This document shows positions 319-39,608 of a stretch of 42,741 nt of DNA, one piece after another. The stretch comes from Actinomycetota bacterium (GTDB taxonomy: Bacteria; Actinomycetota; Thermoleophilia; Solirubrobacterales; Solirubrobacteraceae). A program made the translations under genes and the position numbers. Within the stretch, counting starts at the first letter, position 1. Every line of letters begins with the position of its first letter. Under the pieces are notes generated by a model that was not told where the DNA came from, made no database searches, and was given only the letters and a program-made list of their open reading frames with translations. Location of the stretch: assembly GCA_005888335.1 (NCBI GenBank), contig VAWY01000027.1:1-42741 (forward strand). Direction: 5' to 3'.

Positions 319-3300
319 TCAGGCGGGGAGCGCTGCCGGGCCCAGGATGAGCTCGAGCTCCGCTCGCAGCGTCGGGGTCGCCGCCACGCGGAACTCCTTG
401 CCGAAGCGCAGGCGCTTGGGCCCGATGCTCGTCTGGAGCTCGAGCACCAGCTCGCTGTCGCCGGGGAAGCTCCCGAGGATGTGCTTGATGTCGTCGATCA
501 CGGACGCCGGCAGCCGCGCGGCGTCGGCGGAGATTCGGAGGGGTACGGGCGCGGCGGCGAGCGCTCGCGTGCGGACCTCGACGCGCGCGCGCTCGACCTC
601 CTCGGACGTCGGCTTGAACGGCTCCGCGGAGTTGACGATCACCGACGTCTTGCCCGCCTCCTTGTGGTCGACGCGCCCGCGCACGACCACGACCTCATCG
701 ACGCCGAGCGCGCCCTCGTACTCGTTGAGGACCTTCTCGAAGACGACGATCTCGACCGCCCCCTCGAGGTCGTCGAGCGTCGCGAACATCATGTTGGTGC
801 CCGACTTGGTGCGCAGCTTCTTGGCCTGCGTGACGATCCCGCCGACGGTCACCCAGTCGCCGTCGCGGCGGCTGTCGAGCTCGGCGATGCGGCAGTCGCA
901 CTTGAGCTGAAGCGCCTCGCGCACCTCCTTGAGCGGGTGCGCCGAGATGAACAACCCGATCGACTCCTTCTCGACGGCGAGCAGCTCGGACTGGTCGAAC
1001 TCCTCGGCGGGGATCGGCGGGTGCTGAGGCTGGGCGAAGGCGGGCGTCGGATCGAGGTCGAAGATCGAGCCCTGCCCGACCTGCGCGTCGAGCTGGACCT
1101 TCTGGCCGGCGGCCTGCGCCGCCTCGAGCATGATCAGCATCCCCTTGCGGGTCGCGCCGGTCGAGCCGAACGCGCCGCACTTGATCAGCGCCTCGATCGC
1201 CTTCTTGTTCACCTTCTGGCAGTCCACGCGCGCGCAGAAGTCCCACAGCGACTCGAACGGACCGCCGTCCTCCCGCGCCGCCTTGATCGCCTCGACCGCC
1301 TGATGCCCGACGCCCTTGACCGCGTCCAGCCCGAAGCGGATGTGACCCTCGACGACGGTGAACTCGTGGTCTGAGAGGTTGACGTCGGGCGGCAGGATCT
1401 GGATCCCCATCTCCTCGCAGCGAGCGACGAAGAACGGGACCTTGTCCTTGGTCGACATCACGCTGGAGATCAGCGCCGCCATGTACTCGGCCGGGTAGTT
1501 GGCCCTCAGCCACGCCGTGCGGTAGGCGATCAGCGCGTAGCACGCAGCGTGGGAGTTGTGGGAGACGATCCCGTTGGCCAGGAAGTTCAGCGGGCCGTCC
1601 GGCGCCATCTCGACGTCGTATGTGCTCTCGTAGCCGACGGGCTCGATCGAGATGATCGGGTCACCGTTCTCGGCGTGCACGGTCGCGAGGTGGCGCTCGA
1701 CGCGGAAGCGGAAGTCCTCCGGCGTGACGACGACGTAGGGCAGGTCCCCGTACTTCGCCTGGAAATACTCGGGGACGCGGTCCATGCCGTCCATCTCCCA
1801 GTAGATGCCGCCGAAGTAGAAGTCGCACATGCGCCCATTCGCGATCGGCTTGTGCATCTCGAACTCGATGCCCTTGTCGATCAGCCACTCGCACATCTCG
1901 CGCTCCGGCCAGCTCGAGCACCACATGCCGTTCGACGCGATCGAGCAGTGGCCGTAGCCGGGTCCGGTCTCGTAGGCCTCGCGGACGCGGCGGAAGGAAG
2001 CGTCCACCTGACGCTGCCGCCACTCCGGATCGTTTGCCCAGAGCCACCGGACCCGCTCGTGCATGGCGGCGACTCCGGCTCGCTTCATGTCCGGATAGAG
2101 CACGTGCATGCGCCGCATGTGAGCGGCCTTCTCCTCGTGCGGGCGCGAGTCCTGGTACGCCTTCATACGAAGTGAGGCTTGGCGGTCCCATTCCGCCCGC
2201 TCCGGGCTGTGGGCCAATCGGGTCATGGTCTTCCGGCGCGCCTCACTCTGCTTGTCGCTGATCACCGGCGTTGTGATCAGCTCCGTCTCGCCAACGCGCA
2301 TCTGCTCGATGGGCAGGTAGCCGTCAGTCGTCAGCAACCGGTGATCCGCCGTCGCCTTGATCTGGCGGCCGCTCTCGCAGCGCACCCGATAGACGAACTT
2401 CCGGCCGGTCTTGACGATCCGCTCGACCTTGTGTGGCCGGATGCTGCCGTCCGCCCACATCGACATGACCTCGGGGATACGCTTGCGGTACGCCTCCGAC
2501 AGCCGCATCCGCGTGCCGTCCGGGAGGATGACTCGCGTCTCAGCTGAGGCGCACTTATTAAACGAGTAGTCAGCGCTCCGCTCGTTCGTCGCCCACAGCT
2601 GCTCGATGACCTGCTCGCTCGTGCCCGACGCCCGGCAGCCGGCCACGAACTCGGGCTTGAGCTTGGCCATCGCCTCGCGGTTCTTCTTGCCGATGGCCTT
2701 GCGGAGGTCGTCGGCCTTCGCGCCGCTGAAGCCCGCCAGGGTCTTGGCGATCTGCATCGCCTGCTCCTGGTAGAGGATCACGCCCTTGGTCGAGGCGAGG
2801 ATCGGGCGCAGGCGCTCGTCGGCGAACTGCACGCTCTCGGGCTCGCGCTTGCCGCGCGCGTACGTGCCGATCTGGTCCATGGCGCCCGGGCGGTAGAGAG
2901 CGTTGAGCGCGACGAGGTCGTCGAACTCGTCCGGGCGCACCTTCTGCAGCGCCTCCCGCATGCCCTCGGACTCGAACTGGAACACGCCGATCGAGTCGCC
3001 GCGCGCGAGCATCTCGTAGGTCTTGGCGTCGTCGAGCGGCAGCGTCGTCATGTCGGGGCGCACGCCGGTCGAGCGCTCGATGATGTCCAGCGCGTCCTCG
3101 ATGACGTCGAGGTTGCGCAGGCCGAGGAAGTCCATCTTGAGGAGGCCGATCTCCTCGACGGGCTTCATCGAGAACTGCGTGACCGTCTTGAAGACGCGGT
3201 TGCCCTGCTCGTCGGTCGTGCCGGCGTCGGCGAGCTGGAGCGGGACGATGTCGGTCAGCGGGCGGTCGGCGATGACGACGGCGGCCGCGTGGATCGACGA

Positions 3301-4824
3301 GTTGCGGACGATGCCCTCCAGCCCGCGCGCGACGTCGATGATCTGGCGCGCGGTCGGGTCCTCGTCGTAGGCCTTCTTGAGCTCCTGGCCGGGCGCGAGG
3401 CACTCCTCGAAGCTCGGCGCGCGCCCCATGATCGGGTCGGGGATGAGCTTGGCCAGCCGGTCGCCGACGCCGTAGTCGTGGCCGAGCACGCGCGCGGCAT
3501 CGCGCGTGGCCGCGCGCGGGAACATCTTGCCGAAGGTGACGATCTGCGCCACCGACTCGCGGCCGTACTTCTCGGTGACGTAGCGCATGACGCGCTCGCG
3601 CCCGCGCACCGAGAAGTCGATGTCGATGTCGGGCATCGACACGCGCTCCGGGTTGAGGAAGCGCTCGAAGAGCAGGTCGTAGCGCAGCGGGTCGACGTCG
3701 GTGATCGACAGGCAGTAGGCGACGATCGAGCCGGCCGCGCTGCCGCGGCCGGGACCCACCGCGATGCCGTTGGACTTCGCGTAGTTCACGAAGTCCCAGA
3801 CGATGAGGAAGTAGGCGTTGAAGCCCATGCGGTCGATGACGCCGAGCTCCATGTCGGCGCGCTCGCGCGCCTCGGCCGGCACCGGGTCGCCGTAGCGCAG
3901 GCGCAGGCCCTGGTCGACCAGCGTGCGCAGGTAGGCGCCCTCGTCGGCGCCGTCGGGCGTCGGGTAGCGCGGGATGAGCTGCTTGCCCAGCTCGATCGAG
4001 ACGTCGCAGCGCTCGGCGATGTCGATCGTCGACTGCAGCGCCTCGGGCCACTCCGCGAAGGCGCTCGCCATCTCGGCGTTGTCCTTGAGGTAGAACTCGT
4101 TGGTCTCGAAGGTCATCTTCGGCGCCTGCAGCGTGGACTTGGTCTGCACGCACAGCAGCGCCGTGTGGTGGGCGTGGTCCTCGCGGCGCAGGTAGTGCAC
4201 GTCGGCGGTGGCGACGAGCGGGCGCCCGACCTCGCGGGCGATGCGCACGATGCCCTCGTTGGCGTGGTCCTGCTGGGCGATGCCGTTCTTCTGGACCTCG
4301 AAGAACACGTTGTCGGGGCCGAACGCGTTGAGCAGGTCGTCGGCGTGAGCGCGCGCGTCGGCTTCGCGGCCCTCGGCGAGGCGCGAGCAGAAGCGGCTGG
4401 CCAGGCAGCCGGTGAGCGCGATGACCCCCGTGCCGTGCGCGGCGATCTGCTCGAGGTCGACGGTCGGCTTGCCGCGGCTGAGGCCCTCGAGGAAGCCGGC
4501 CGAGCTGAGCTTGACGAGGTTGCGGTAGCCCTCGTCGGTCTCGGCGAGCAGCGTGAGGTGGTTGCGCTCCACGCGCGCGCCAGCTTCGGCCTTGGCGTGG
4601 TCGTCGACGAAGTAGATCTCGCAGCCGACGATCGGCTTGACGCCATGCTTGGCGGCCGCCCTGGCGAGCTCGACCGCGCCGTTCATCACGCCGTGGTCGG
4701 TGAGGCCGAGCGCGGGCTGCTCGAAGGCGGCGGCGCGGGCGGCGAGCGCGTCGATCTTGCACGCGCCGTCGAGCAGCGAGTACTCGGAGTGGACGTGCAG
4801 ATGAGCGCAGGCAGCGGTTGTCAC
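319..4824 (-). CDS. dnaE: DNA polymerase III alpha subunit, intein-containing precursor
   Basis: Catalytic subunit of the replicative polymerase. The precursor is 1501 residues; removing the 333-residue intein leaves 1168, normal for DnaE. The PHP domain opens with HLHVHSEYSLLDG (residues 8-20), so its histidine metal ligands are intact. The C-family polymerase core contains GPGRGSAAGS and PDIDIDF (~397-404), the catalytic aspartates. The fingers motif is split: residues 1-757 end in DYSFNK and the C-extein resumes at SHAACYALIAYRT. A helix-hairpin-helix segment (GVGHQAVEAIK) and an OB fold (WVTVGGIVTQAKKLRTKSG) follow. The start chosen is a GTG at 4824, giving VTTAACAHLHVHS; the frame is open far upstream but that part is an Arg/Pro-rich shadow of the preceding gene. 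It sits 65 bp downstream of the coiled-coil gene. Confidence 0.97.
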   Translation of the reverse strand: MTTAACAHLHVHSEYSLLDGACKIDALAARAAAFEQPALGLTDHGVMNGAVELARAAAKHGVKPIVGCEIYFVDDHAKAEAGARVERNHLTLLAETDEGYRNLVKLSSAGFLEGLSRGKPTVDLEQIAAHGTGVIALTGCLASRFCSRLAEGREADARAHADDLLNAFGPDNVFFEVQKNGIAQQDHANEGIVRIAREVGRPLVATADVHYLRREDHAHHTALLCVQTKSTLQAPKMTFETNEFYLKDNAEMASAFAEWPEALQSTIDIAERCDVSIELGKQLIPRYPTPDGADEGAYLRTLVDQGLRLRYGDPVPAEARERADMELGVIDRMGFNAYFLIVWDFVNYAKSNGIAVGPGRGSAAGSIVAYCLSITDVDPLRYDLLFERFLNPERVSMPDIDIDFSVRGRERVMRYVTEKYGRESVAQIVTFGKMFPRAATRDAARVLGHDYGVGDRLAKLIPDPIMGRAPSFEECLAPGQELKKAYDEDPTARQIIDVARGLEGIVRNSSIHAAAVVIADRPLTDIVPLQLADAGTTDEQGNRVFKTVTQFSMKPVEEIGLLKMDFLGLRNLDVIEDALDIIERSTGVRPDMTTLPLDDAKTYEMLARGDSIGVFQFESEGMREALQKVRPDEFDDLVALNALYRPGAMDQIGTYARGKREPESVQFADERLRPILASTKGVILYQEQAMQIAKTLAGFSGAKADDLRKAIGKKNREAMAKLKPEFVAGCRASGTSEQVIEQLWATNERSADYSFNKCASAETRVILPDGTRMRLSEAYRKRIPEVMSMWADGSIRPHKVERIVKTGRKFVYRVRCESGRQIKATADHRLLTTDGYLPIEQMRVGETELITTPVISDKQSEARRKTMTRLAHSPERAEWDRQASLRMKAYQDSRPHEEKAAHMRRMHVLYPDMKRAGVAAMHERVRWLWANDPEWRQRQVDASFRRVREAYETGPGYGHCSIASNGMWCSSWPEREMCEWLIDKGIEFEMHKPIANGRMCDFYFGGIYWEMDGMDRVPEYFQAKYGDLPYVVVTPEDFRFRVERHLATVHAENGDPIISIEPVGYESTYDVEMAPDGPLNFLANGIVSHNSHAACYALIAYRTAWLRANYPAEYMAALISSVMSTKDKVPFFVARCEEMGIQILPPDVNLSDHEFTVVEGHIRFGLDAVKGVGHQAVEAIKAAREDGGPFESLWDFCARVDCQKVNKKAIEALIKCGAFGSTGATRKGMLIMLEAAQAAGQKVQLDAQVGQGSIFDLDPTPAFAQPQHPPIPAEEFDQSELLAVEKESIGLFISAHPLKEVREALQLKCDCRIAELDSRRDGDWVTVGGIVTQAKKLRTKSGTNMMFATLDDLEGAVEIVVFEKVLNEYEGALGVDEVVVVRGRVDHKEAGKTSVIVNSAEPFKPTSEEVERARVEVRTRALAAAPVPLRISADAARLPASVIDDIKHILGSFPGDSELVLELQTSIGPKRLRFGKEFRVAATPTLRAELELILGPAALPA
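1555..2553 (-). mobile_element. DnaE intein with a predicted PD-(D/E)XK-type homing nuclease
   Basis: 333-residue in-frame intein. Splicing residues are all present: Cys1, block B TADHRLLT (68-75), block F from YDVEM to NFLANGIVSHN (312-333) with penultimate His332 and Asn333, and Ser as +1 extein residue. The insertion point is FNK|SHAA in the DnaE fingers, four residues downstream of the position of the cyanobacterial split DnaE intein (Y|CFNKSH). Between the splicing halves there is no LAGLIDADG motif. Residues ~100-195 are basic, helical and repetitive (SEARRKTMTRLA, DRQASLRMKAY), like NUMOD-type DNA-binding segments. Residues ~200-290 read SSWPEREMCEWL, then MCDFYF, then IYWEMDG, which fits a PD-(D/E)XK/Vsr-like nuclease with E217 or E219, D244, E253 and D255 as candidate catalytic residues. 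The nuclease assignment is inference from motif order; the intein call is secure. Confidence 0.93.
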
Positions 4825-8599: not shown

Positions 8600-9925
8600 T
8601 CAGCCGCCTTCGCTTCGCTCGGCTCTCAGCCGCCACGCCATTCGCGACTGCAGCGACCACAGCTCGATGAAGCCCGGCGACGCCTGCTGCGAGAACAGCC
8701 CGCCGGACTCGGCGAAGGTGGCGAGCTGCGCGTCGTAGACGGCGTGGGGCGACTCGCGCGTGACGACCCGCACGGAGCCCTTGTAGAGCTTGAGCCCGAT
8801 CGTCCCGGTCACCCACTCGTTGACCGAATCCATGTAGGCGTCGAGATCGCCCCGCAGCGGCTCCCACCACAGGCCCGCGTAGACGAGGTACGCCCACTGG
8901 CGGTCGAGCCCGGGCTTGAACTGGTTCTGGTGGATCGTGCCGACGAGCTTCTCGAGCTCGGCGTGCGCGGTGAGCAGGATCGCCGCCGCCGGCACCTCGT
9001 AGATGTCGCGGACCTTCAGGCCGACGATCCGGTCCTCGATGTGGTCGACGATGCCCACCCCGTGGCGCATGCCGATCTCCGCGGCGCGCTCGAGCAGCTC
9101 GACCAGCTCGAGCCGCTCGCCGTTCAGCGCGACCGGCACGCCGCGCTCGAACTCGACCGACAGCAGCTCGGGCTCGTCGGGCGCCTCCTCGGGGCGCGTG
9201 ACGAGCTGGAAGACGTCGTCCTCGGGCGCGTGCGCGAGGTCCTCGATCCACTTGCCCTCGCTCGAGCGCCCCCACAGGTTGTCGTCGATCGAGTAGGGCG
9301 CCGCCTCGGTGCCGCCCTTGACGGGGATGCCGTGCTCGCGCGCGTAGGCGATCTCCTCGTCGCGGCCCATCGACCACGAGCGGACGGGCGCGATGAGCTT
9401 GAGCTCGGGCGCGAGCGTCGCCACCGTCGACTCGATGCGCACCTGGTCGTTGCCCTTGCCCGTGCAGCCGTGGGCGATCGTGTCGCAGCCGCTGCGGCGC
9501 GCGTACTCGACGGCGAGCTTGGCGATCAGCGGGCGGCCGAGAGCGGTGAAGAGCGGGTAGGCGAGCCCGTAGATCGCGTTGGCCTTGATCGCCGGCACGA
9601 TGTACTCGCGCGCGAACTCCTCGCGCGCGTCGACCACGAAGGTCTCGACGGCGCCGAGCCGGCGCGCCTTGCCCTCGACGACCTCGTAGTCCTCGCCGGG
9701 CTGGCCCAGGTTGACGGTGAGCGTGACGACCTCGGCCTCGTACTCGTCCTGGATCCACTTGAGCATCACGCTCGTATCCAGGCCGCCCGAGTACAGGAGC
9801 AGAACCCGGTTGACCTCCTCCGGGCGCGCCTCGTAGGAGGCGATCGCCTGCGCGCGCATGCGCTCCTTGGCCTCGGGCGGCGGGATGTGGTGGGCGGAGA
9901 TGCGGGGAGCGTCGTCGTCGGCCAT
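8600..9925 (-). CDS. argG: Argininosuccinate synthase
   Basis: Condenses citrulline and aspartate with ATP to argininosuccinate, the penultimate arginine step, in the cytosol. 441 residues. The ATP pyrophosphatase P-loop SGGLDTS is at residues 46-52. Further family motifs are HGCTGKGNDQVRIE, SWSMGRDEE and SIDDNLWGRSSEGKW. The ~40-residue N-terminal extension before the first strand and the overall length match the longer ArgG subtype. ATG at 9925 is the natural start. It follows the NTF2-like gene after 29 nt on the same strand and closes the arginine cluster. argF, argR and argH, which lie between argD and argG or after argG in mycobacteria, are absent from this window. Confidence 0.96.
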   Translation of the reverse strand: MADDDAPRISAHHIPPPEAKERMRAQAIASYEARPEEVNRVLLLYSGGLDTSVMLKWIQDEYEAEVVTLTVNLGQPGEDYEVVEGKARRLGAVETFVVDAREEFAREYIVPAIKANAIYGLAYPLFTALGRPLIAKLAVEYARRSGCDTIAHGCTGKGNDQVRIESTVATLAPELKLIAPVRSWSMGRDEEIAYAREHGIPVKGGTEAAPYSIDDNLWGRSSEGKWIEDLAHAPEDDVFQLVTRPEEAPDEPELLSVEFERGVPVALNGERLELVELLERAAEIGMRHGVGIVDHIEDRIVGLKVRDIYEVPAAAILLTAHAELEKLVGTIHQNQFKPGLDRQWAYLVYAGLWWEPLRGDLDAYMDSVNEWVTGTIGLKLYKGSVRVVTRESPHAVYDAQLATFAESGGLFSQQASPGFIELWSLQSRMAWRLRAERSEGG

Positions 9926-10341: not shown

Positions 10342-11474
10342 GGCTCCAGCAGCCTGTGTAGTCGCGCGACCGCCTCGTCGACCTCCGCCTCGCCGATCAC
10401 CAGCGGAGGCAGCAGGCGCACGGTCGCGGGGCCGGTCGCGTTGACGATGAGCCGCTGCTCGTGCAGCGCGCGCTTGACGAGCTCGGGCGCGCCGCCGTCG
10501 ACGAGGTCGAAGGCGACCATGAGGCCGCGCCCGCGGACCGCCGTCGCCCCAGGCAGGTCCGTCAGCGCCGCCCGCAGGCGCTCGCCCAGCTCGCGCACGC
10601 GGACGAGCAGGGCGTCGTCGCCGAGGACGTCGAGGACCGCGTGCGCCGCGGCGCAGACGACCGGGCCGCCCGCGAAGGTCGAGCCGTGGTCGCCGGGCTG
10701 GAAGACGTCGGCCAGGCGCGGGCCGGTGACGAGCGCACCGATCGGCAGGCCGCCGCCGAGCGCCTTGGCCGTCGTGAGCGCGTCGGGCATCACGCCGGTC
10801 TGCTCGTAGGCCCACAGCGTCCCGGTGCGGCCCAGGCCGGTCTGGATCTCGTCGAAGATCAGCGCCGCGCCGTAGGCGTCGCACGCCCGGCGGGCGGCGA
10901 GCAGCGTCTCCTCGCTGGCCGCGTGGATGCCCGTCTCGCCCCGGATCGGCTCGATCAGCACAGCGGCCGTGCGCTCGCTCACCGCGTCCCCGACGGCCTC
11001 GGCGGGCACGGTGACGAAGCCGGGCACGAGCGGCGCGAAGGGCGCCTGCTTGGTCTCCTGCGGCGTCGCCGAGAGCGCCCCGTATGTGCGCCCGTGGAAC
11101 GCTCCCTCGACGACGACGATCTCGCCGCCCTGGCGGGCGCGGCGGGCGAGCTTGAGCGCGGCCTCGATCGCCTCCGCACCGCTGTTGGTGAAGAACACCT
11201 TGCCGCCGAGCGAGCTTTGCGCCAGCCGCTCGGCCAGGCGGACCATCGGCTCGGTGTAGAAGAAGTTGCCGACGTGGATGAGCCGCCCGGCCTGCTCGCG
11301 GATCGCCTCGACGACGCGCGGGTGGCAGTGGCCGACGCTCGAGACGCTGATCCCGGTCAGGAAGTCGAGGTACTCCGCGCCGTCGGCATCCCACAGGCGC
11401 GCCCCCTCGCCGCGCGCGAATTCGACGTCGAACCGAGCGTACGTCGGGATCAGGTGGGCGTCGGGCGCGTTCAA
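10338..11474 (-). CDS. argD: Acetylornithine aminotransferase
   Basis: PLP enzyme converting N-acetylglutamate semialdehyde to N-acetylornithine. 378 residues with the class III aminotransferase signature: NSGAEA (97-102), FHGRTYGAL (127-135), FDEIQTGLGRTG (207-218) and the PLP lysine K237 in TTAKALGGGLPIG. The frame is open upstream, but the sequence before LNAPDAHLIPTYARF is a shadow of argB. The best start is therefore a TTG at 11474 whose last two bases begin the argB stop (TTGA overlap), indicating coupled translation. Its own stop overlaps the next gene (GTGA). A close relative with N-succinyl or GABA specificity cannot be excluded from motifs, but the context fixes the call. Confidence 0.95.
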   Translation of the reverse strand: MNAPDAHLIPTYARFDVEFARGEGARLWDADGAEYLDFLTGISVSSVGHCHPRVVEAIREQAGRLIHVGNFFYTEPMVRLAERLAQSSLGGKVFFTNSGAEAIEAALKLARRARQGGEIVVVEGAFHGRTYGALSATPQETKQAPFAPLVPGFVTVPAEAVGDAVSERTAAVLIEPIRGETGIHAASEETLLAARRACDAYGAALIFDEIQTGLGRTGTLWAYEQTGVMPDALTTAKALGGGLPIGALVTGPRLADVFQPGDHGSTFAGGPVVCAAAHAVLDVLGDDALLVRVRELGERLRAALTDLPGATAVRGRGLMVAFDLVDGGAPELVKRALHEQRLIVNATGPATVRLLPPLVIGEAEVDEAVARLHRLLEP

Positions 11475-12349
11475 CGGGCGGGCCGGATCTTCGTGCCGAT
11501 GCCGGAATCGGTGAACAGCTCGAGCAGCAGCGAGTGCGGGACGCGGCCGTCGATGATGTGGGCGTAGCCGACGCCGCCGTGGATGGCGTCCAGGCACGCC
11601 CGCAGCTTGGGTCCCATGCCGCCGGAGATCTGCGCCAGCGCGGCCTCGACCTCGTCCGCGCCGGCCTCGCTGATCACGCTCGCCGGGTCGGCAGGGTCGC
11701 GCAGCCAGCCATCGACGTCGGTGAGGAAGATGAGCTTGTGGGCGCCGAGCGCGCGGGCGACGGCGGCGGCCGCCTCGTCGGCGTTGACGTTGTGCGGCTG
11801 GCCGTCGCGGTCGGGCCCGACGCTGGCGATGACCGGTATGTAGCGCTCGGCGACGCGCTCGAGCAGGTCGGCGTCGACGCGCTCGATGCTGCCGACGAAG
11901 CCGACGTCCTCGCCGCCGGGCGCGGTCGTGCGTGCGACACGGAACAGCGCGCCGTCGTCGCCGCTGAGGCCGACCGCCGGCTGCCCGTGGCGGTTGATGC
12001 GCACCACGATGTCCTTGTTGACCTTGCCGACCAGGACCATCTTGGCCACCTCGACGGTCGCCGCGTCCGACACGCGCAGCCCGCCGACGAACCGCACGGG
12101 CAGATCGAGGCGCTCCATGTAGGCGGTGATGTCGGGCCCGCCGCCGTGGACGACGACCGGGTTGATCCCGACGTACTTGAGCAGCACGACGTCGCGGGCG
12201 AACTCCTCGCGCAGCGCCGGGTCGTCCATCGCCGCGCCGCCGTACTTGATGACCACGGTTCGCCCGTGGAACTCGCGGATGTACGGCAGCGCCTCGAGGA
12301 GCGTCTCGACGTCGCGCACGTGGTCAGTCCTTGTACGGATCGAAGACAT
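11471..12349 (-). CDS. argB: Acetylglutamate kinase
   Basis: Phosphorylates N-acetylglutamate, usually the feedback-controlled step. 292 residues of amino-acid-kinase fold: VVIKYGGAAM (33-41) with lysine K35, VVHGGGPDI (66-74), SGDDGALF, NVNADEAAAAVARALGA and LIFLTDVDGWL. The N-terminal helix LLEALPYIREFHG is typical of arginine-sensitive hexameric enzymes, so allosteric arginine inhibition is likely (inference). ATG 12349 overlaps the end of rtcB by 26 nt. A GTG at 12319 would begin 5 nt after the rtcB stop and give VRDVETLLEAL, also plausible. In most actinobacteria argB directly follows argJ; here rtcB intervenes. Confidence 0.96.
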   Translation of the reverse strand: MSSIRTRTDHVRDVETLLEALPYIREFHGRTVVIKYGGAAMDDPALREEFARDVVLLKYVGINPVVVHGGGPDITAYMERLDLPVRFVGGLRVSDAATVEVAKMVLVGKVNKDIVVRINRHGQPAVGLSGDDGALFRVARTTAPGGEDVGFVGSIERVDADLLERVAERYIPVIASVGPDRDGQPHNVNADEAAAAVARALGAHKLIFLTDVDGWLRDPADPASVISEAGADEVEAALAQISGGMGPKLRACLDAIHGGVGYAHIIDGRVPHSLLLELFTDSGIGTKIRPAR

Positions 12350-13505
12350 GGGCTCCCGCCATCGCCACGCCGACCGGCCGGAGCCGATGCGTGACCTTGA
12401 TCGTGTCCGCGTGCGCGGCCAGCACGTCGTCGAGCCGCTTGTACACCTCGGGCGCCTCGTCGGCGGCGCCGCCGCGCAGCTCGATGCCCCGCTTGCGCAG
12501 CCGGTCCTGGACCGCGCGCCAGTCGATCACCCCCGGCTTGCCCTTCTTGCCCTTGGCCTGGCGGCGCGACATCACGCGCCCGGCGCCGTGGATGGTCGAG
12601 TGGATGAGCTCCTTCGTCCCCGCAGACTCGACGCCCTCAACAACAACGGAGACGTCGCCCATGGTCGAGCCGACGAAGCCGCGCTGGCCGGGGAACGCGG
12701 GCGTGCAGCCCTTGCGCACGACCCAGCACTCAACGCCGTCGACCTCCTCTCTCCAGGCGAAGTTATGGTGGTTGTGGACCGAGTCGACCTCACGCGCGCC
12801 GAGGATCTCGAGCACGCGCGCGACGACGACGTCGCGCCCGGCGTAGGCGTACTCGCCGGCCAGCTGCATCGCTGCGATGTACGCCTGCCCGAGCTCTGAG
12901 TCCTGATGGAGCAGCACCGGCGGGGCATCCATCTCGCCGCCGGTCGGCCGGCCTTCGAATGCCAGCCCCTGAGCGCGTGCGAGGAACCCATTGGCGGTCT
13001 TGTAGCCGAAGCCGCGGGAGCCGAAGTGCACGCCGACCCACACGCGATCCTCCTCGTCGGCGAACAGGTCGACGTAGTGGTTGCCGCCGCCGACCGTCCC
13101 GAGCTGGTTCGCGGCCTGGTCGTAGAGCTTGCGCTGGGACGCGAAGTCCGCGCGGCGGATCTTGTCGAGGACCGGATGGTCGGCACGCTCGCCCTCGTTT
13201 CGCCCGATGCCGAACGAGATGCGCTTGGCGATCTTGTCCATGACCCGCGGGACGTCGATGTCGCCGAGCGTCAGGTCGGTCCGGGTGGCCTTGTTCCCAC
13301 ATCCGATGTCGTAGCCGACGCCGCTCGGCGAGATGTGCTCCGGATAGGCGATCACGCCGCCGATCGGCTGGCTGTAGCCCACGTGCCCGTCGGCGAGCAG
13401 GGCCGCCCGCACCGCGTCGCCGGCCTCGGCGCAGCGGGCGAGCTGCTCGACCGCGCGGGCGTCGACGTCGCCGCGGACGGCGATCTCAGGTCGTGTACTC
13501 GGCAT
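12324..13505 (-). CDS. rtcB: RtcB-type RNA ligase (3'-phosphate/5'-OH ligase)
   Basis: GTP- and Mn-dependent RNA ligase joining 2',3'-cyclic phosphate or 3'-phosphate ends to 5'-OH ends in RNA repair or splicing. 393 residues. Metal and guanylylation residues are recognisable: D66 and C69 in GYDIGCGN, GGGNHYVD (H143), VGVHFGSRG (H160), SVHNHHNF (244-247) and TIHGAGRVMSR, where H306 corresponds to the histidine that carries GMP. The usual STCHGAGR is STIHGAGR here. It starts at ATG 13505, 20 nt inside argJ, and ends 26 nt inside argB, so it is embedded in the arginine operon. No archease, RtcA or prfH gene is in the window. Its presence between argJ and argB is unexpected. Confidence 0.95.
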   Translation of the reverse strand: MPSTRPEIAVRGDVDARAVEQLARCAEAGDAVRAALLADGHVGYSQPIGGVIAYPEHISPSGVGYDIGCGNKATRTDLTLGDIDVPRVMDKIAKRISFGIGRNEGERADHPVLDKIRRADFASQRKLYDQAANQLGTVGGGNHYVDLFADEEDRVWVGVHFGSRGFGYKTANGFLARAQGLAFEGRPTGGEMDAPPVLLHQDSELGQAYIAAMQLAGEYAYAGRDVVVARVLEILGAREVDSVHNHHNFAWREEVDGVECWVVRKGCTPAFPGQRGFVGSTMGDVSVVVEGVESAGTKELIHSTIHGAGRVMSRRQAKGKKGKPGVIDWRAVQDRLRKRGIELRGGAADEAPEVYKRLDDVLAAHADTIKVTHRLRPVGVAMAGAHVFDPYKD

Positions 13506-18168: not shown

Positions 18169-19217
18169 CAGCCGAACTGCTCCAGGAAGCGCAGGTCGTT
18201 CTCGTAGTACAGGCGCAGGTCGGTGACGCCGTGCTTGAGCATCGCGATCCGCTCGATCCCCATCCCCCAGGCGTAGCCCTGCACCTTCTCGGGGTCGTAG
18301 CGGTCGTCGTCGACGTAGGAGTAGACGTTGGGGTCGACCTCGCCGGCGCCGAGGATCTCCAGCCACGACTCGCCCTTGCATACCGGGCAGCGCGAGCCGT
18401 CGGCGAGGTAGCCGTCGTTGCAGTTGAAGCACGAGACGTCGACCTCGACGCTGGGCTCGGTGAACGGGAAGAAGTGCGGGCGCAGGCGGACCTCGCGCTC
18501 GTCGCCGAAGACCGTGCGGGCGAAGGCGAGCAGCGTGCCCTTGAGGTCGGCCAGCGTGATGTCCTCGTCGACGGCGAGGCCCTCGACCTGGTGGAACTGG
18601 GGCGTGTGGGTGGCGTCGGAGTCGGGCCGGTAGACGCGGCCGGGGATGACGACGTAGAGCGGCGGCGGGTGGGCCTCCATCGCGCGCACCTGCATGGGCG
18701 AGGTGTGCGTGCGCAGGACCACGTCGTCGGCGACGTAGAAGGTGTCGGTCGGCTCGCGCGCGGGGTGCGTCGGGCTGTGGTTCAGGGCGTCGAAGTTGTA
18801 GTGGACGGTCTCGACCTCGGGCCCCTCGACGACGGTGAAGCCGAGCCCGAGGAAGACGTCCTCGAGCTCGCGCCAGGTCTGGGTGATGAGGTGCAGGCGG
18901 CCGACGGGCTGCGGCGGGTCGCCGGGGAGCGTGACGTCGACGCGGTCGGCGACCAGCCGCTGCTCGAGCTCGGCGGCCTCGAGCTCGGCGTGGCGAGCGG
19001 CGATCGCGTCCTCGAGCTCGCGGCGGGCCAGGTTGGCCGCCTTGCCGACGCGGCCGCGCTCGGACGGCTCGAGCTCGGCCACGCCGCGCAGCAGGTTGGG
19101 CAGCTCGGCCTTGCGTCCCAGCCACTGCACGCGCGCCTGCTCGAGCGCGCCCGTGGTCGTCGCCTCGGAGATGGCGGCGCGCGCGTCGGCGGCGATCTGC
19201 TCGATGCGGTCGATCAT
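18168..19217 (-). CDS. pheS: Phenylalanyl-tRNA synthetase alpha subunit
   Basis: Catalytic alpha chain of PheRS. 349 residues: an N-terminal coiled coil of ~90 residues that contacts tRNA, then the class II core with THTSPMQVRAM, FHQVEGLAVD and, near the end, GYAWGMGIERIAML (motif 3). Between motifs 2 and 3 there is a four-cysteine insertion, CFNCNDG...CPVCKG, a CX2C-X9-CX2C pattern that probably binds zinc; comparable Cys pairs occur in many bacterial PheS proteins. ATG 19217 overlaps the upstream methyltransferase stop (ATGA). Confidence 0.97.
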   Translation of the reverse strand: MIDRIEQIAADARAAISEATTTGALEQARVQWLGRKAELPNLLRGVAELEPSERGRVGKAANLARRELEDAIAARHAELEAAELEQRLVADRVDVTLPGDPPQPVGRLHLITQTWRELEDVFLGLGFTVVEGPEVETVHYNFDALNHSPTHPAREPTDTFYVADDVVLRTHTSPMQVRAMEAHPPPLYVVIPGRVYRPDSDATHTPQFHQVEGLAVDEDITLADLKGTLLAFARTVFGDEREVRLRPHFFPFTEPSVEVDVSCFNCNDGYLADGSRCPVCKGESWLEILGAGEVDPNVYSYVDDDRYDPEKVQGYAWGMGIERIAMLKHGVTDLRLYYENDLRFLEQFG

Positions 19218-36626: not shown

Positions 36627-37514
36627 ATGTGCCGGCTGTTCGGCATGAGCGGCGGGACCAAGCGGGTGCGCGCGACGTTCTGGCTGCTCGAGGCGCCCGA
36701 CAGCCTCGCCGAGCAGAGCCGCCGCGAGCCCGACGGCACGGGCGTTGGATGGTTCGACGCCGACGGTCATCCGCTTGTGGCCAGGCAGCCGCTGGCCGCG
36801 CACGAGGACCAGGCCTTCGCGCGTGAGGCGCGCGAGCTCGAGTCGACGACGTTCGTTGCCCACATCCGCTACGCGACGACCGGGGCGATCGAGGCGCGCA
36901 ACACGCACCCGTTCGAGCAGCGCGGCCGCCTCCTCGCCCACAACGGCGTCATTCATGATCTCGACCGCCTCGAGCGCGAGCTCGGCGACGATCGCGCTCT
37001 GGTCAAGGGCGACACCGACTCCGAGCGGCTGTTCGCACTCGTGACGCGGGAGACCGAGCGCCGCGGCGGCGACGTCGGCGCGGGTATCGCCGCCGCAGCG
37101 AGCTGGGTGGCGGCACAGCTGCCCCTGTACGCGATCAACATCGTCCTCGCCACCGCCGACGGCCTGTGGGCGCTGCGCTACCCCGACGTCCACGAGCTGT
37201 GGGTCCTCGAGCGCGGAGCCGGCGGCCCGCGCGGCGGGCGCCACCTCGACGCCGCGAGCGCCGCCGGCACCGTCCGCGTGCGCTCGGCGCATCTCGCGCG
37301 TCGGGCGTCGGTGATCGTCGCGAGCGAGCCGATGGACGAGGACCCTGGCTGGCGGGCGCTCGAACCGGGTGAGCTGGTGCACGTGGCGGCCACACTCCAG
37401 GTCGAGTCCACGATCGTGCTCGACCGGCGCCCCGCACAACAGCTGACGCTCGACGACCTGGAGCCGCTCGCCGCCGCCGCCCAGGCGCCGCCGCGTGCGA
37501 CTCCCCAGCCATGA
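36627..37514 (+). CDS. Class II glutamine amidotransferase
   Basis: 295 residues. The catalytic Cys2 follows the initiator Met (MCRLFGMSGG), which fixes the start at 36627. Other Ntn-hydrolase/GATase-II features are PDGTGVGWFDADG, STTFVAHIRYATTGA, THPFEQRGRLLAHNGVIHD and LVKGDTDSERLFALV. It lacks any synthase domain, so it is a stand-alone YafJ/EgtC-like member hydrolysing glutamine or a gamma-glutamyl compound to glutamate. The glutamate decarboxylase gene starts 22 nt downstream, suggesting the two act together. No clear Shine-Dalgarno precedes the ATG. Confidence 0.9.
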   Translation: MCRLFGMSGGTKRVRATFWLLEAPDSLAEQSRREPDGTGVGWFDADGHPLVARQPLAAHEDQAFAREARELESTTFVAHIRYATTGAIEARNTHPFEQRGRLLAHNGVIHDLDRLERELGDDRALVKGDTDSERLFALVTRETERRGGDVGAGIAAAASWVAAQLPLYAINIVLATADGLWALRYPDVHELWVLERGAGGPRGGRHLDAASAAGTVRVRSAHLARRASVIVASEPMDEDPGWRALEPGELVHVAATLQVESTIVLDRRPAQQLTLDDLEPLAAAAQAPPRATPQP

Positions 37515-37536
37515 CCATCCCCACCCAGGAGGCGCC

Positions 37537-38928
37537 GTGGCCCTGCACCGCTACGTCGACGACGCGGACGACCACCTGCAGCTCGATCCGCTGCTGTCGA
37601 TCCCGTACAGCCCCGGCCGGTTGCCCCGATCACGCATCCCCGAGGGCACGACCCCGCCCGAGATCGCCGCACGGCTCGTGCGCGGCGATCTCATCCTCGA
37701 CGGCAACGCGCGGCTGAACCTGGCCACCTTCGTGACGACGTGGATGGAGCCCGAGGCCCGCGCGCTCATGGCCGAGACCTCCGACAAGAACATGATCGAC
37801 AAGGACGAATACCCGCAGACCGCCGAGCTCGAGAGCCGTTGCGTCAGCATCCTCGCCGACCTCTGGCACGCACCCTCGGGCGGGCAGGCTACGGGCACGT
37901 CGACCACGGGCTCGAGCGAGGCGGCGATGCTCGGCGGGATGGCGCTGCTGTGGCGCTGGCGCGCTCGCCGGCGGGCGGCGGGGCGGCCGATCGACGCACC
38001 GAACCTCGTGACCGGGATCAACGTCCAGGTCTGCTGGGAGAAGTTCTGCCGCTACTGGGACATCGAGCCGCGCCTGGTGCCGATGGACGGCGATCGCCGG
38101 CACCTCGACGGCGAGCAGGCGGTGAAGCTGTGCGACGAGAACACGATCGGCGTCGTCGCGGTGCTGGGCAGCACGTTCGACGGCAGCTACGAGCCGGTCA
38201 AGGAGATCTCCACGGCACTCGACGCCCTCCAGGGCGAGCGTGGCATCGACGTCCCGCTGCACGTCGATGCCGCCTCCGGCGGGTTTGTCGCGCCCTTCAT
38301 CCAACCCGACCTCGAATGGGACTTCCGGCTGGGGCGGGTGCAGTCGATCAACGCCTCGGGCCATAAGTACGGGCTCGTCTACCCGGGCATCGGCTGGGCG
38401 CTGTGGCGCGACGCCGAGGCGCTGCCCGAGGACCTCGTGTTCAAGGTCAACTACCTCGGTGGGGAGATGCCGACCTTCGCCCTCAACTTCTCGCGGCCGG
38501 GCAGCCAGGTCGTGGTCCAGTACTACAACTTCCTGCGCCTCGGGCGCGAGGGCTACCGCGCCGTCCAGCAGGGCTGCCAGGACGTCGCGCGACGGCTGTC
38601 GGCCGGCATCGCCGAGCTCGGACCGTTCGAGCTGCTCACTGACGGCAGCGACCTCCCCGTCTTTGCCTTCACGCTGCGCGACGACGTCACGAACTACACC
38701 GTCTTCGAGGTCTCACGCGCGCTGCGCGAGCGCGGATGGCAGGTGCCGGCCTACACGCTGCCTGCCAACCTCGAGGACCTCGCCGTCCTGCGCATCGTCG
38801 TCCGCAACGGTCTCAGCGCCGACATGGCCGACATCCTGCTCGCCGACCTCAGACGCGCCGTCGAGGAAGACCTCTCAAAGCTGCCGGCGCCGCCTCCGAT
38901 CTCAAGGCCACAGTCGTTCCATCACTGA
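37537..38928 (+). CDS. gadB: Glutamate decarboxylase
   Basis: PLP enzyme converting glutamate to GABA and CO2 with proton consumption; confers acid resistance or makes GABA. 463 residues from GTG 37537, preceded by AGGAGG at good spacing. Motifs: TGSSEAAMLGGMALLWRWR, CWEKFCRYWDIEPR, HVDAASGGFVAPF (PLP aspartate D244) and INASGHKYGLVYPG with PLP lysine K277. The N-terminal region IPEGTTPPEIAARLV and the MIDKDEYPQT block are typical GAD. No GABA antiporter is in the window. It is paired with the upstream amidotransferase, which could supply glutamate. Confidence 0.95.
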   Translation: MALHRYVDDADDHLQLDPLLSIPYSPGRLPRSRIPEGTTPPEIAARLVRGDLILDGNARLNLATFVTTWMEPEARALMAETSDKNMIDKDEYPQTAELESRCVSILADLWHAPSGGQATGTSTTGSSEAAMLGGMALLWRWRARRRAAGRPIDAPNLVTGINVQVCWEKFCRYWDIEPRLVPMDGDRRHLDGEQAVKLCDENTIGVVAVLGSTFDGSYEPVKEISTALDALQGERGIDVPLHVDAASGGFVAPFIQPDLEWDFRLGRVQSINASGHKYGLVYPGIGWALWRDAEALPEDLVFKVNYLGGEMPTFALNFSRPGSQVVVQYYNFLRLGREGYRAVQQGCQDVARRLSAGIAELGPFELLTDGSDLPVFAFTLRDDVTNYTVFEVSRALRERGWQVPAYTLPANLEDLAVLRIVVRNGLSADMADILLADLRRAVEEDLSKLPAPPPISRPQSFHH

Positions 38929-39012: not shown

Positions 39013-39118
39013 GCCGCCCGCGCCGTGCTCGCCGAGCTCGACGTCGCGGACGGGCAGCGGATCGTGGAGGTCCAATTCCTGGCGGCGTCGGCCCTGCAAA
39101 TAGGGGCTTTTGTGCGAG

Positions 39119-39191
39119 TGGGCGATACTGGGCTCGAACCAGTGACCTCCGCCTTGTCGAGACGGCGCTCTCCCAGCTGAGCTAATCGCCC
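39119..39191 (-). tRNA. tRNA-Val(GAC)
   Basis: 73 nt, CCA not encoded. Acceptor GGGCGAT/ATCGCCC is perfect, D stem GCTC/GAGC, anticodon stem CCGTC/GGCGG (one G-U), variable AGGTC, T stem ACTGG/CCAGT with TTCGAGC loop, discriminator A. The only register that pairs the anticodon stem gives loop TCGACAA, hence anticodon GAC (Val). In that register position 33 is C instead of the near-universal U. A TAGGCT -10-like hexamer lies shortly upstream of the 5' end. Confidence 0.92.
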
Positions 39192-39513: not shown

Positions 39514-39584
39514 GGCGCCGTGGCGGAGTGGCTACGCAGCGGCCTGCAAAGCCGTTTACACCGGTTCGATTCCGGTCGGCGCCT
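39514..39584 (+). tRNA. tRNA-Cys(GCA)
   Basis: 71 nt, CCA not encoded. Acceptor GGCGCCG/CGGCGCC is perfect, the D arm is short (GCG/CGC), anticodon stem GCGGC/GCCGT with loop CTGCAAA (anticodon GCA, U33 present), a 4-nt variable region, T stem ACCGG/CCGGT with loop TTCGATT, discriminator T (U73), the Cys identity base. Confidence 0.96.
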
Positions 39585-39608
39585 CTGACGGAACCTCCGC
39601 GACGAGGG

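Follow-up and report, generated by a model that had tools for sequence, protein, structure and literature searches.

A contiguous DnaE intein with a predicted PD-(D/E)XK-fold nuclease between its splicing regions, a probable homing element

A recent review, in its treatment of inteins, names four families of homing endonuclease, HNH, His-Cys, GIY-YIG and LAGLIDADG (PMC7765530), and in DnaE the native Npu intein lies, according to an excerpt of its source, between the flanks AEY|CFNK (PMC3759424). A DUF559/EDxHD gene is named in the intein section of another paper, where the available text does not state whether it is embedded (PMC9403480), and excerpts of a further one describe a large unrecognised EDxHD/Vsr outgroup with CapR-like domains in phage group II introns (PMC12350094). 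Here we describe an intein within dnaE on contig VAWY01000027.1 of a bacterium of the Solirubrobacteraceae (42,741 nucleotides; this whole stretch is hereafter the window). With a probability that we would put at roughly four in five, it is a mobile intein whose in-frame insert, an EDxHD/Vsr-like domain of PD-(D/E)XK fold, acts as a homing endonuclease cutting intein-less dnaE; a preliminary description of this DNA had proposed a DnaE intein with a PD-(D/E)XK/Vsr-like nuclease insert, and the present analysis supports that interpretation. A search of the literature by title and abstract, with most subscription papers outside its coverage, found no description of this DnaE intein family, and a contiguous intein with an in-frame nuclease at the FNK|SH site of dnaE, represented in more than 200 protein clusters, appears to be new.

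The host gene and the parts of the element are these:
319..4824, minus strand: dnaE, DNA polymerase III alpha subunit, the host gene (NCBIfam DnaE models, NF004226 at 1239 bits)
1555..2553, minus strand: intein of 333 aa, C1 to N333, at site FNK|SH of DnaE (translation; flanks ...DYSFNK and SHAACY...)
2266..2553, minus strand: N-terminal splicing region, residues 1-96, with Cys1 and T68-x-x-H71 (TIGR01445 above cut-off)
1972..2265, minus strand: helical region, residues 97-194, net charge +8, presumed DNA-binding arm (five predicted helices, charge)
1666..1971, minus strand: nuclease domain of predicted PD-(D/E)XK fold, residues 195-296 (model, fold matches, profile match to free-standing nucleases)
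1555..1665, minus strand: C-terminal splicing region, residues 297-333, ending in HN and followed by Ser+1 at 1552-1554 (TIGR01443 above cut-off)

Judged from its translation, the element is a contiguous class-1 intein in DnaE. The preliminary description had placed it at 1555..2553 with canonical splicing blocks, and both points hold: the coordinates are exact, the open frame is that of the minus strand, stops interrupting the opposite one, and Cys1, the block B TxxH within TADHRLLT, the terminal HN and a Ser at the Ser/Thr/Cys+1 position are all present in the minus-strand translation. The frame is not a product of chance, since 242 of 310 candidate proteins, the window's own included, match the insert at E<=0.01; the best 120 of these 242 matches carry DnaE domains. 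The intein exceeds the curated cut-offs of TIGR01445 (41 bits; cut-off 24.5), TIGR01443 (19.3 bits; 15.6) and PF14890 (45.8 bits; 35.8). Extraction from 164 proteins yielded 118 inteins that lie at the same site and have both ends (44 others were without one or both ends, as judged by patterns); these were aligned in 118 rows, with the window copy counted once and row P0078 lacking the N-terminal region; these relatives were retrieved by the insert, such that decayed or insert-less copies are under-sampled. T68 and H71 are kept in 117 of the 118 aligned inteins, and H332 and N333 in all of them. Because the splicing blocks are intact, splicing through Cys1, Asn333 and Ser+1 may be expected. 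The dnaE product, intein included, has 1501 aa, its start codon being taken from the length of the database protein P0003 (1501 aa, from a contig of 42741 bases). As had been noted, the FNK|SH site adjoins the split DnaE site: the intein here stands after K, four residues downstream of AEY|CFNK. Three DnaE proteins of 1946-2031 aa (P0099, P0110 and P0117) carry a LAGLIDADG-bearing insertion elsewhere in addition to an intein of the FNK|SH type, that of P0099 comprising about 380 aa after residue 70.

Concerning the insert, the preliminary description had reported a lack of LAGLIDADG, three motifs in PD-(D/E)XK order and, ahead of them, NUMOD-like basic helices. The motifs SSWPEREMCEWL, MCDFYF and IYWEMDG are found exactly as given, and no LAGLIDADG or HNH model of Pfam matches at E<=10. 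Residues 97-296 as a whole are without a match in Pfam at this threshold and, by profile, in the PDB, and sequence searches of the insert in Pfam, PHROGs and the PDB returned no confident match; the whole intein matches splicing domains in the PDB, plus two weak response regulators (E 0.14 and 0.79). The whole-intein model (77 rows; predicted local distance difference test, pLDDT, 75.5) places five helices at residues 100-194, followed by an alternating alpha/beta domain; as its fold search was swamped by inteins, the nuclease domain was predicted separately (residues 176-297, 64 rows), with a pLDDT of 83.9 and core blocks at 87-95. This model has a helix at 215-226, strands at 232-236, 242-247 and 250-254, a helix at 261-268, a strand at 273-276 and a helix at 281-296. 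The alpha-beta-beta-beta-alpha-beta core of a PD-(D/E)XK nuclease is thereby predicted, its elements in the order proposed earlier, and fold matches in the PDB agree. A conserved stretch, 196-213 (GPGYGHCSIASNGMWCSS), is modelled with low confidence in both predictions. The best solved fold match is the catalytic domain of I-Bth0305I (3r3p), an EDxHD homing endonuclease, and the close matches include Vsr and TnsA (a family missing from these lists is not thereby excluded); the structure prediction proposed as a check in the preliminary description thus points to the nuclease-like fold that it anticipated. The 3r3p entry is absent from the PDB matches of the intein or insert by sequence or profile. 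As for the helices, five are predicted with a net charge of +8 and probably form a DNA-binding arm, but the NUMOD label finds no support, as no NUMOD model in Pfam matches the region; internal repeats, which seemed likely by eye, were rejected because their score was reached by 134 of 500 shuffles.

Four acidic residues of the nuclease are invariant:
1903..1905, minus strand: codon of E217, helix A of the nuclease (118/118)
1822..1824, minus strand: codon of D244, strand 2 (CDFYF), aligned with the D of PDF (118/118)
1795..1797, minus strand: codon of E253, strand 3 (WEMDG), aligned with the E of EIK (118/118)
1789..1791, minus strand: codon of D255, just past strand 3, at the (D/E)xK lysine position of canonical enzymes (118/118)

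D258, R259, C212 and C243 are likewise invariant in the alignment. E219, which had been named beside E217 among the residues expected to cluster, has to be given up, being variable (64 of the 118 rows have E, 36 D, 11 Q and 7 another residue). The acidic residues called for on strands 2 (D) and 3 (D/E) are present as D244 and E253 in every row; the lysine of the xK motif is not, D255 standing in its place throughout, and the assignment is thus by fold only and not to the canonical PD-(D/E)XK members. Lysine swaps of this kind occur within the PD-(D/E)XK superfamily, and E-x-D also occurs in DUF559 comparison rows. Among 12 DNA copies, the mean proportion of nonsynonymous differences (pN) is lowest in the nuclease (0.154, against 0.220 for splicing regions and 0.328 for helices), and the median ratio of nonsynonymous to synonymous rates (dN/dS) is 0.15, 0.20 and 0.29, respectively, where dS could be used for 44, 53 and 43 of the 66 pairs; on these codon comparisons, the nuclease domain is under purifying selection. 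In one relative, P0078, DnaE reads FNK|CASICARAYQ...; it keeps the nuclease but lacks, in frame, a part of the helical region and all of the N-terminal splicing region. This protein should not splice, and reflects either real decay or an assembly error. Inteins of 290-315 aa occur in P0069, P0071, P0091, P0103 and P0111, and in four of these the deletions affect mainly the helical arm, with the nuclease core retained.

Relatives of the nuclease also occur outside DnaE. P0173 (193 aa, on a contig of 1148 bases) is a divergent, free-standing-looking relative of arm and nuclease with 34% identity over 177 positions, in which the four acids are kept and the conserved cysteines are not. Of 400 genomes from a single phylum, six were matched by a profile that included P0173; four of these matches are copies of the DnaE insert, and the other two are weak. 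One of the weak matches, L159, is a free-standing bacterial frame of 240 aa with PDF..VEIKG. Its E value within its genome was 6.6e-5, which across the 400 genomes amounts to about 0.03 expected by chance, and it has matches to PHROG 945 (endonuclease; 3e-4) and to 12 records of large phages. Compared by hhalign with L159 and four phage kin (L162-L165), the insert nuclease reaches a probability of 93-95%, and without L159 it reaches 88% with a score of 41.4, the maximum of 150 column shuffles being 22.4; taken singly, L159 gives 92.8%, L162 50.2% and the remaining three phage kin at most 3.2%. In a plain profile search L159 reached 15.7 bits, against 14.6 for the highest-scoring of 2000 shuffled decoys. 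Opposite E217 in the alignment stands the helix-A Glu; the Asp of PDF falls at D244, and the Glu and Lys of EIK fall at E253 and D255, respectively. Against named families the local mode gives 27-33% for Vsr, 1-2% for DUF559 and 0.1-0.2% for HNH and LAGLIDADG, and the global mode at most 0.5% for all four (rows retained: DUF559 17/22, Vsr 15/16, HNH 15/19, LAGLIDADG 10/12; rows with short flanks or stops were excluded); the family models of Vsr (PF03852) and DUF559 (PF04480) have no match to the insert at E<=10. PHROG 16145 (function unknown) matched 5 of 6 rows, with a best E of 0.008. Searches by tblastn found no match to the insert in phages and plasmids or to P0173 in phages, and among viral contigs 0 of 53 pattern matches were confirmed for the insert and 0 of 4 for P0173. 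The whole intein matches 95 phage records at E<=10, 30 of them listed; of two that were inspected, that in ThyX of phage Cane17 proved to be an HNH intein and that in phage StAugustine a DUF932 protein, and both were set aside.

The distribution of the intein is sporadic. A collection of 84,980 species holds 13 loci, all in metagenome-assembled genomes, of Solirubrobacterales/Thermoleophilaceae, Thermomicrobiales, Chloroflexi/Ktedonobacteria, Armatimonadetes, Eremiobacterota and one further bacterium. In an even draw of 299 genomes from one class, with at most 10 candidates scored per genome, 2 carry it, and empty sites are plain among relatives: the joined flanks, searched for in 61 genomes, give a match that is unbroken across the site in 56, broken by the intein in 1 and uninformative in 4. 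Between near hosts (extein more than 70% identical; 67 proteins including the window), mean identity is 75.8% for the intein and 80.1% for the extein, with the reverse order in 11. Between distant hosts (extein below 55%) the intein is the more alike in 22 of 22, at 63.1% versus 44.6%, and across all pairs of 100 proteins this is so in 1887 of the 1887 pairs with exteins below 50%. P0104 and P0119 have exteins 98.1% identical, including 764 aa of N-extein at 97%, and inteins 73.3% identical, and they swap partners between the intein and extein trees. Because the inteins of distant hosts are more alike than their exteins and these two proteins change tree partners, the sequences show that the intein moves between hosts by horizontal transfer. 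Both trees also keep the 4 Actinomycetota rows and the 3 Chloroflexota rows as groups, and since named phyla thus stay together, much of the descent is vertical. The pattern of intein homing is found here in full: the insert lies in frame between splicing blocks, the intein occurs sporadically, and it has spread horizontally. At the Phe codon at -3, TTT is used in 5 of 13 intein-bearing alleles (window included) versus 0 of 29 empty ones, a bias that is at most suggestive of a co-conversion trace, being confounded by the differing host taxa of the two sets.

Of the competing explanations, the one that survives best, albeit as an unlikely one, holds that the domain is a nuclease by descent that is now domesticated or inactive (e.g. 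a structural or splicing-control module) and that the intein persists mainly vertically. It can draw upon the replacement of the (D/E)xK lysine by D255, upon the retention of the nuclease in P0078 without its N-terminal splicing region, and upon the vertical descent indicated by the phyla grouped in both trees. However, invariance of four acidic residues in 118 of 118 rows, the lowest pN in the nuclease and the presence of different inteins in near-identical hosts speak against it, and the E-x-D arrangement is present in DUF559 rows too. Far less probable still is an active nuclease with a non-homing role (nicking, repair or defence), the intein being transferred by ordinary dnaE recombination. 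Vsr, which along with TnsA is among the close folds, is a nicking repair enzyme. Yet the domain lies between splicing halves, the place of intein homing endonucleases according to the accessible part of one source (PMC6801210), and the differing inteins of P0104 and P0119 beside 764 aa of N-extein at 97% identity would not be expected from whole-gene exchange. That an endonuclease of the LAGLIDADG, HNH or GIY-YIG type has gone unrecognised in the insert is of negligible likelihood: LAGLIDADG is the commonest intein endonuclease in the review text available (PMC7765530), but there is no Pfam match at E<=10, the two profiles compared by hhalign, HNH and LAGLIDADG, stay at 0.1-0.2% in local mode, and the predicted fold is PD-(D/E)XK.

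In the cycle that we consider likeliest, that of a homing element, the Hint domain would remove itself by Cys1/Asn333/Ser+1 chemistry and so restore DnaE, and the basic helical arm (net +8) of the free intein would grip the target DNA. E217, D244, E253 and D255 would be arranged around a metal in the EDxHD/Vsr-like PD-(D/E)XK-fold domain, the nuclease would cut empty dnaE across or near the highly conserved DYSFNK|SHAACY sequence, and repair from the intein-bearing allele would copy the element into the cut gene. With less assurance, we lean toward a broader reading: bacterial inteins of this type would form a widespread class, so far undescribed, whose homing enzyme is a lysine-less PD-(D/E)XK-fold nuclease that branched from free-standing phage nucleases and was captured in frame by a contiguous intein. 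As its target would be among the most conserved stretches of dnaE, such an element would be able to cross phyla. If this is true, inteins would have captured one more nuclease fold, in the form of a large family driven by an EDxHD-like enzyme; dnaE would have a second point of independent invasion, only four codons away from the site of the split intein; and the family would supply site-specific nucleases of a type that is little used. Direct tests of catalysis and of homing are within reach, given the replacement of K by D in the active site and the near-identical hosts that carry different inteins.

The window otherwise contains ordinary neighbours:
8603-9925, minus strand: argininosuccinate synthase
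11474-12349, minus strand: amino acid kinase
12327-13505, minus strand: RtcB-like protein
18171-19217, minus strand: PheS
37495-38925, plus strand: PLP decarboxylase
39118-39191, minus strand: tRNA-Val
39514-39585, plus strand: tRNA-Cys

Relative to known systems, the intein resembles LAGLIDADG and HNH inteins in having a nuclease between its splicing halves and differs from them in nuclease fold. Dassa in 2009 is said to have connected split inteins ("fractured genes") with Vsr-like nucleases, with the nuclease reportedly a separate gene between the intein halves; the association of intein and Vsr-like nuclease is common to both, but here they form one chain. The cyanobacterial split DnaE intein, which is not known to contain an endonuclease, shares the host protein and nearly the same place. 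Unlike the present element it is split, and its site lies four codons upstream (AEY|CFNK, in the excerpted source, PMC3759424). The outgroup described in the available text of PMC12350094 similarly has a distant EDxHD/Vsr nuclease C-terminal to DNA-binding domains, with CapR-like domains and introns there in contrast to a helical arm and an intein here. The free-standing nucleases L159 (bacterial) and L162-L165 (phage) share a profile match across E217, D244 and E253, but have the canonical PDF..EIK with lysine and were not seen in inteins. Nearest in predicted structure are the Vsr-like EDxHD homing endonucleases exemplified by I-Bth0305I, the best solved fold match and one with a homing role; these are described as phage-derived and as belonging to mobile introns, whereas here the domain sits within a contiguous bacterial intein, and its motif is E..D-x(8)-E-x-D (E217, D244, E253, D255), with no literal HD and no sequence match to 3r3p among the PDB hits. 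On its predicted fold the insert is a candidate member of the family, expected to work in the manner of an EDxHD homing endonuclease.
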